From contig JAIPGA010000021.1 of assembly GCA_021736445.1 (NCBI GenBank), forward strand, positions 1 to 34,316: DNA of 34,316 nucleotides. Reading direction: 5' to 3'. Source of the DNA: Synergistales bacterium. GTDB taxonomy: Bacteria; Synergistota; Synergistia; Synergistales; Aminiphilaceae. The translations under genes and the position numbers were made by a program. Shown in pieces: positions 24,719 through 25,770 of this stretch. Each line of letters begins with the position of its first letter. The stretch's first letter is position 1. The notes under the pieces are model-generated. The model was not told the origin of the DNA and did no database searches. It saw only the letters and a program-made list of their open reading frames with translations.

Positions 24719-24816
24719 GGAGGCGGTTGTGCTCTGGTGAGTGCCCCGGGCTTCAAACCCGGTGGGGGGCGGTATGAGCCGTCTCCGGTGGGTTCGATTC
24801 CCACACGTCTCCGCCA
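24719..24816 (+). tRNA. selC: Selenocysteine tRNA, anticodon UCA (selC)
   Basis: This 98-base tRNA gene ends in an encoded CCA. The acceptor arm is eight positions long (GGAGGCGG with the 3' strand at 24805-24812; last pair G-A) and the T stem has five pairs with loop TTCGATT, the 8+5 geometry of bacterial tRNA-Sec. The D stem is extended to six pairs (24729-24734 with 24739-24744). The anticodon loop CTTCAAA carries TCA at 24753-24755 on a 5-pair stem. A long variable arm follows. These features separate it from serine and suppressor tRNAs. The genome therefore decodes UGA as selenocysteine. Confidence 0.96.
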
Positions 24817-24919: not shown

Positions 24920-24950
24920 GATATAGGAACGAATGCTCGGAGGTGAGTCG

Positions 24951-25484
24951 ATGACCCTTGCAGAGGAAGGGAAGGAATGGGACGGTGGTGTAGATGGGAA
25001 CGGCGGCACAGAGCGGAGCTCCGGTGACCAGCCGGACGAGGGTACCCGCGTTTCCCCGTCTGAAGGGACTGCTTCTGCCGGGCCCAGTACCGAGAGAGCG
25101 ATCTTCGACGAATCCCTTCTCCTGGAGCAGCAGGGCGGAGACAGGGGATTTGTTGCCATTTTGAAATCGGAGACGGCGCGGCGCCTCCGGGAGTGCCGCG
25201 ACACCATAACGGAGGCGCTCAATGAGAGAGACGGAAGCGATGTGCACGATATCGCCCATGCCCTCAAGGGGATCGCCCTCACTGTCGCGCTTCCTCGCCT
25301 TGCGGAGAGCGCGGAGCGGCTTATGGGGCTCTCGAAGGCCCGGGCGGCGGAGATGGACGACCGACTGTACGAGGCATGCCGAAGGTTTCTGGGAGATATC
25401 GACAGTGCGCTGCGGGCGCTGGATGCGGACCGTTCCGGACAGTCCCGGGGGGCTGACGAAGCCGGAGATCTGCGGAATCCGTGA
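24951..25484 (+). CDS. Stand-alone histidine phosphotransfer (Hpt) protein
   Basis: This 177-residue protein has a ~50-residue disordered, Gly/Glu/Ser-rich N-terminus and then an Hpt four-helix domain (about 65-160). The phosphorylatable His103 lies in AHALKGIAL, matching the Hpt HxxKG pattern. The start is ATG 24951 because GGAGGT at 24939-24944 is well placed; the upstream in-frame ATG 24933 precedes that site. Hpt proteins relay phosphate from a hybrid kinase receiver domain to a final response regulator. The Hpt-less hybrid kinase encoded at 21814-23745 is the obvious candidate donor; the acceptor is not in the window. Confidence 0.85.
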   Translation: MTLAEEGKEWDGGVDGNGGTERSSGDQPDEGTRVSPSEGTASAGPSTERAIFDESLLLEQQGGDRGFVAILKSETARRLRECRDTITEALNERDGSDVHDIAHALKGIALTVALPRLAESAERLMGLSKARAAEMDDRLYEACRRFLGDIDSALRALDADRSGQSRGADEAGDLRNP

Positions 25485-25571
25485 GAAGGATGGTGCCGCC
25501 TGTCTGTGTTGTGTGCGGACGGTGGCGATGTACTGCTGATCGCTGACGAGAGAGAAAGGGAGTTGTTGACC

Positions 25572-25679
25572 ATGAGGTTCAGATATGGGTTTTGCCCTCC
25601 CTGACTGCTGATCTTCCTTGCACTGGCGGTCGTCGGTGTTGTGCGATGGCTCATACGGTGGCTCTCAGGCGGGGGATAA
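25572..25679 (+). CDS. Candidate small membrane selenoprotein with CPPU motif (UGA at 25602 read as Sec)
   Basis: This 35-codon frame has one in-frame TGA. AGGGAG (25557-25562) precedes ATG 25572 by nine bases. Ten codons encode MRFRYGFCPP, then TGA at 25602-25604, then LLIFLALAVVGVV (a single membrane helix), RWLIRWLSGGG and TAA. With UGA read as selenocysteine this gives a Cys8-Pro-Pro-Sec11 redox-type motif at the membrane edge. The UGA is followed by C, a weak termination context. A SECIS-like hairpin lies just downstream and selC lies 0.75 kb upstream. Read as a stop, the UGA would leave a ten-residue peptide. I do not recognise the family; the function is unknown, though a thiol/selenol redox role in the membrane is suggested by the motif. 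It may be co-transcribed with the Hpt gene, 87 bases upstream. Confidence 0.72.
25620..25639 (+). promoter_or_regulatory. Bacterial SECIS-like hairpin
   Basis: GCACUGGC (25620-25627) pairs with GUCGGUGU (25632-25639): eight contiguous pairs, three of them G-U, with apical loop GGUC (25628-25631). The loop starts 23 bases after the UGA. Known bacterial SECIS elements have an apical loop with G in the first two positions at about this distance, and the E. coli fdhF loop also contains GGUC, which SelB contacts. Confidence 0.68.
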
Positions 25680-25730: not shown

Positions 25731-25770
25731 GAGGCTGGATTGCAGGGATACCTGTAGCCCAGCCTCTTCT
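25731..25770 (+). terminator. Terminator-like hairpin after the selenoprotein candidate
   Basis: GAGGCTGG (25731-25738) and CCAGCCTC (25759-25766) form eight perfect pairs, with an inner stem GCAGG/CCTGT closed by GATA. TTCT follows, a weak U-run. It could terminate the Hpt-selenoprotein transcript. Confidence 0.5.

Follow-up and report, generated by a model that had tools for sequence, protein, structure and literature searches.

A family of tiny, apparently undescribed membrane selenoproteins predicted in anaerobic bacteria

Introduction

SELENOK and SELENOS are small, single-pass membrane proteins of eukaryotes with one essential selenocysteine (Sec) near the C-terminus, and both are longer than the 35-residue protein considered here. 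The discovery of selenoproteins relies mainly on Cys homologues of UGA-containing frames (PMC12013277, PMC13188914). The rules for the bacterial SECIS element (bSECIS) given in PMC13188914 call for a loop of 3 to 9 nt, a stem of 4 to 16 bp, a G within the first two loop positions, a distance of 16 to 37 nt from the UGA and an energy of -7.5 or lower. For Aminobacterium sp. MB27-C1, which belongs to the deep-Sep test set, 13 known selenoprotein genes and no new ones were recorded.

Here we analyze a short UGA-containing frame from a Synergistales bacterium (assembly GCA_021736445.1, contig JAIPGA010000021.1). The whole stretch of 34,316 nt is referred to as the window. The original prediction, made from these letters alone, proposed an undescribed, tiny membrane selenoprotein with a CPPU motif (U, Sec), and this core claim is supported by a reading frame kept across the UGA and by a conserved hairpin. 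As the UGA must be decoded as Sec, standard gene finders overlook the 35-residue protein.

Results and Discussion

The window gene and the selenocysteine machinery

The elements from which the gene had been proposed (a Shine-Dalgarno site, an ATG, ten codons leading to Cys-Pro-Pro, an in-frame TGA, a hydrophobic stretch, an Arg/Trp/Gly tail and a TAA, the latter at 25677-25679) are all present as claimed (Table 1). The next gene downstream is mraZ, and a hybrid histidine kinase and a CRP/FNR-type regulator are encoded further upstream of the Hpt gene. A scan for intrinsic terminators found none after the open reading frame (ORF). An inverted repeat 3' of the ORF (25731-25766; GAGGCTGG ... CCAGCCTC) is without a clear T run and was not called a terminator.

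Table 1. Features of the window at and near the selenoprotein ORF
Feature	Coordinates	Strand	Basis or comment
tRNA-Sec gene (selC), same genome as ORF	24719..24816	+	ORF 0.75 kb downstream
Hpt-domain protein, gene just upstream of ORF	24933..25484	+	Pfam PF01627; partnership with ORF unsupported
Shine-Dalgarno-like AAAGGGAG, purine-rich, ATG 9 nt further on	25555..25562	+	Read from sequence
Predicted selenoprotein ORF, 35 aa, MRFRYGFCPPULLIFLALAVVGVVRWLIRWLSGGG*	25572..25679	+	ATG to TAA; relatives share frame
In-frame TGA, putative Sec codon, residue 11	25602..25604	+	Sole internal stop in every significant relative; SelB in genome
Predicted membrane-helix codons after Sec (part of AlphaFold2 helix 9-34)	25605..25670	+	Uncharged-stretch measurement and AlphaFold2 model
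SECIS-type hairpin GCACUGGC-GGUC-GUCGGUGU	25620..25639	+	Loop 23 nt after UGA; compensatory changes across relatives

The selenocysteine tRNA gene that the original prediction had placed 0.75 kb away was recovered, and a SelB gene, with a product scoring above the family cut-off, lies on a different contig of this genome; the window genome therefore has both tRNA-Sec and SelB. Among the genomes that carry a relative of the window protein (see below), tRNA-Sec was found in 24 of the 27 Synergistota carriers and in 22 of the 27 carriers of a second class, and was not found in the other 3 and 5, respectively, most genomes being incomplete metagenome-assembled genomes (MAGs). This co-occurrence is only a modest test, as most genomes of the two classes have tRNA-Sec (123 of 183 and 70 of 98).

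Family members and their spread

An initial search with the protein in 60 relatives produced weak matches; three of these were plainly the same protein, with a TGA in the identical position. Across 183 genomes of the window's class (Synergistia, Synergistota), a DNA pattern consisting of CPPU and three hydrophobic codons was matched 54 times, compared to 17 times for the reversed control. Some matches to the CPPU pattern, such as those in Bordetella, Streptomyces and Mycolicibacillus records, were rejected as chance. A Synergistota profile built from 26 members matched 27 of the 183 genomes (E <= 6e-5), and every one of these matches has exactly one internal stop, a TGA at the Sec column.

A scan of contigs located members in Synergistaceae/Synergistales and in one Desulfotomaculaceae MAG (METKKPWYKNCPPUVFIYILLAVVLGLSALIKNLF), the class of which holds family members in 4 of 113 genomes. 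A profile search at the level of this MAG's phylum retrieved sequences in which the first Cys is absent (e.g., MKEIKSPWYKKISPUMLMYLLLAAVLGIYVLIRYLIN). A second class of the same phylum has members in 27 of 98 genomes (28 copies; E, 1e-16 to 6e-5), and each copy has one TGA. With two further genomes, the family extends to about 60 genomes of anaerobic bacteria. A copy in G033 (L067, 5001 onward), which belongs to the genus of G009, has a frame broken shortly after the Sec codon, probably by decay or an assembly error, and was left out of the member count.

In profile-profile comparisons, the Desulfotomaculaceae-type sequences matched the Synergistota branch with an E value of 2e-11 and the second branch with one of 2e-22, each from a single pairwise comparison and indicative only; the two branches may thus be connected via these sequences. 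Overall, the family consists of proteins of about 34 to 49 residues with a basic N-terminus, a [C/S/P/I..]-P-Sec motif and one hydrophobic helix.

Coding evidence downstream of the UGA

The original prediction would have failed if no relative kept the frame across the UGA, and relatives do keep it on both sides of this codon. Downstream of the UGA, genus g22 gave 60/24/112 pairwise differences at codon positions 1/2/3, family f3 gave 213/102/329, and the second branch gave 2244/1637/3565. Beyond the hairpin, the second branch still yielded 1178/826/1927. Such an excess of third-position changes is, as judged from these alignments, the signature of protein-level selection.

The SECIS-type hairpin

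The window hairpin, with an 8-bp stem, a GGUC loop beginning 23 nt after the UGA and an energy of -9.7 kcal/mol, agrees with the bSECIS rules and is correctly placed, as had been proposed. By itself it is weak evidence, because in single-sequence folding this stretch was no more stable than its own shuffles (z = +0.5). Most relatives also have a hairpin, some of which miss the energy rule, while in G042, G142, G143, G009 and G026 the hairpin departs from the standard rules or position. In most members of the Synergistota set, the 4-nt loop begins 23 nt after the UGA. In the second branch, the stem is mostly 7 to 8 bp or more, the loop is GGC or GGG, and the loop start lies exactly 20 nt after the UGA in 29 of 29 members.

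In the hairpin alignments, 86.2% of cells were paired in the Synergistota branch and 96.6% in the second branch. Compensatory pair changes occur in both, none of 500 shuffles reached the covariation score in either branch, and both pairing and covariation score fell when the partner was slid by 1 to 3 columns. As kinship among the sequences can inflate shuffle tests of this kind, we place weight jointly on the covariation, the constant position and the conformity to the bSECIS rules. Loss of the hairpin in relatives, which would have counted against the original prediction, was not what we observed: it is kept, with compensatory changes. Comparison of relatives thus establishes the gene, its frame and the putative recoding hairpin, and suggests that Sec is inserted at the UGA.

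The motif and the absence of a cysteine form

In the combined alignment, only the putative Sec and the Pro just before it are invariant. The residues preceding Sec in the 32 loci of a second data set were ISP (17), VSP (4), LSP (4), CPP (3), IPP (2), LPP (1) and RSP (1), and the motif of G026 is CSPU. In the second branch, all 29 members read S-P-U or P-P-U and lack a Cys three residues before Sec, and a CxxU redox pair therefore cannot be the shared mechanism. The Cys-x-x-Sec pair of the original prediction is thus present in the CPPU branch, including the window, but does not belong to the family core. Judging by the alignment, the conserved reactive group is a lone selenol rather than a Cys-x-x-Sec pair.

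No Cys form of the family was found among the genomes searched; Cys homologues are usual for a selenoprotein family but not strictly required. Stop-free, weak profile matches considered as Cys homologues (including G065, G007 and G037) were rejected on reading their sequences. It seems reasonably likely that the family represents a widespread class of obligate-Sec microproteins, i.e., membrane peptides about 35 residues long, with the selenol as their sole conserved reactive group and no tolerance of Cys. If so, homology methods that rest on Cys/Sec pairs are blind to such microproteins. The family also poses a clean question: what can a lone selenol at the membrane surface do that a thiol cannot?

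Predicted structure

AlphaFold2 modeled the window protein as a single helix (residues 9 to 34; pLDDT of about 90 in the helix) that begins at the motif and has Sec in its first turn. Sec is followed by 13 uncharged residues in the window protein, compared to 17 to 20 in the relatives measured, and the window helix may therefore be shallow or tilted. The two flanks of the helix carry similar charges, which favor neither topology. We infer a membrane location for the family.

Gene neighborhoods

No universal neighbor or partner gene was found across the neighborhoods compared, and as the neighborhood is not conserved overall, no single pathway is implied. The siting between selC/Hpt and mraZ, which had been suggested as the place to look for relatives, is likewise not conserved. 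One other genome, G634, has tRNA-Sec near its family member (contig C12; tRNA-Sec at 41220-41309 and the member at 42967-43068, 1.7 kb apart).

Several arrangements recur locally. A Sec-containing peroxiredoxin is encoded directly upstream in three Desulfotomaculaceae-type genomes (FYPGDYTFVUATE in one). Loci L185, L186 and L187 have a Sec-peroxiredoxin gene just 5' of the member, a possible two-selenoprotein operon; the peroxiredoxin motif, where read, is PGDYTFVU or PGDFTFVU. Five second-branch loci (L237, L238, L254, L260 and L205) have a gene for a DsrE-like protein of 112 to 115 residues directly downstream, about 85 to 90 nt after the Sec codon; it contains a CKACSAKMG-type motif, and its Pfam DsrE score is weak (E = 0.015) and below the Pfam cut-off. 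In family f5, the member is located between butyrate kinase and a DUF308 protein, and in five genomes of this family a DsbD_TM protein and a TlpA-like protein (a CcdA/TlpA pair) are encoded near it. In family f3, the member is found near ArsR, a methyltransferase apparently of the arsenite methyltransferase type and an ArsP_1 permease, in varying gene order, and one member adjoins a CitMHS/ArsB-type permease gene. A palindrome near AATACCCC[C/T]AGGGGGTGA occurs upstream of eight of the nine family f3 members (G055, G061, G071 and G074-G078; L068, L069 and L074-L079), where it overlaps the ribosome-binding region. We presume that it could be a CsoR-type operator; it could also form a hairpin that masks the Shine-Dalgarno site.

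Interpretation

Taken together, these data make us highly confident that the window ORF is genuine and encodes a single-helix membrane selenoprotein of 35 residues, a confidence that applies to its identity as a selenoprotein and not to its mechanism. Were the UGA a true stop, only a 10-residue leader peptide would be made, and the likeness downstream would reflect a conserved RNA structure, e.g., a regulatory leader. A UGA followed by a structure could in principle regulate, and the hairpin is indeed conserved with compensatory changes. However, the frame downstream stays open with its amino acids kept and with changes mostly at third positions, even past the hairpin; every frame is closed by a second in-frame stop at a similar place; and the members occur in many unrelated contexts without a common downstream gene to regulate. 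We consider this reading very improbable. Even less credence can be given to a chance open frame in GC-rich DNA beside a chance hairpin: the shuffle result for the window hairpin alone would allow it, but the same architecture in homologues from about 60 genomes and the excess of pattern matches over the reversed control contradict it.

Several functions are conceivable for a membrane selenoprotein of this kind. Binding of metals or metalloids (arsenic, mercury or copper) at the membrane, in place of redox catalysis, would agree with the arsenic-type genes around family f3 members, which occur in more than one gene order, with the CitMHS/ArsB-type permease gene beside one member and with a dithiol-like CPPU pair, which could bind soft metals. 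As such neighbors occur in a few genera only, Sec has no adjoining Cys in the second branch, and the genes nearby in other lineages are of the peroxiredoxin, DsrE-like or butyrate kinase type, we regard metal binding as quite unlikely. A regulatory role is also conceivable: as a small subunit or sensor, the protein might dock on a larger membrane protein and use Sec as a redox switch. Its size and form are those of known single-helix microproteins, and genes for a hybrid histidine kinase and a CRP/FNR regulator precede the Hpt gene that the window ORF follows; yet, among the genomes examined, this kinase/Hpt context occurs only in that of the window, and no recurrent large membrane partner was found, which leaves such a role a minority possibility.

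The most likely function, put forward tentatively, is that the peptide presents a reactive selenolate at the surface of the membrane and takes part in peroxide, persulfide or disulfide chemistry. The UGA would be decoded as Sec by SelB and tRNA-Sec under the direction of the hairpin, placing Sec in the first turn of the membrane helix, where the helix dipole and nearby Lys/Arg residues would favor the selenolate. Held at the membrane, the selenolate could attack peroxides, persulfides or disulfides, with a thiol partner for its re-reduction. The Cys that precedes Sec by three residues in the CPPU branch could serve as an optional resolving thiol, whereas a separate partner would have to resolve in the S/P-P-U branch. 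The redox neighbors (Sec-peroxiredoxin, DsrE-like and CcdA/TlpA) fit a redox function but vary.

Comparison with known systems

Pfam and NCBIfam scans of the members gave no model above cut-off, and the literature yielded nothing relevant on the CPPU motif or on short membrane selenoproteins. No counterpart was found by description among the 119 bacterial selenoprotein families in Table 1 of PMC13188914 (a 2026 catalogue), through which the families of Haft and Tolstoy (2025) were also compared. The family of tiny membrane selenoproteins is thus apparently undescribed, and the apparent lack of a Cys form would explain how it escaped notice. If it is real, current counts of selenoproteins in anaerobes are too low for the smallest proteins.

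Thioredoxin-like CxxC/CxxU oxidoreductases resemble the CPPU branch in having Cys/Sec at CxxC spacing. They differ in that the present protein, modeled as one helix, has no room for a thioredoxin fold and no Pfam match, and in that the second branch is without Cys, so that a conserved Cys paired with Sec is not a feature of the family. SELENOK and SELENOS are similarly small, with one membrane helix and one Sec, and no homology is claimed; their Sec lies near the C-terminus, after the helix, whereas in the window protein it is residue 11 of 35, at the helix start. None of the catalogued selenoprotein families (PMC13188914) is described as a tiny single-helix protein like the present one, but they have in common with it a Sec-UGA, a hairpin shortly downstream that is mostly within the bSECIS rules, the Sec machinery and, for one branch here, the CxxU motif.
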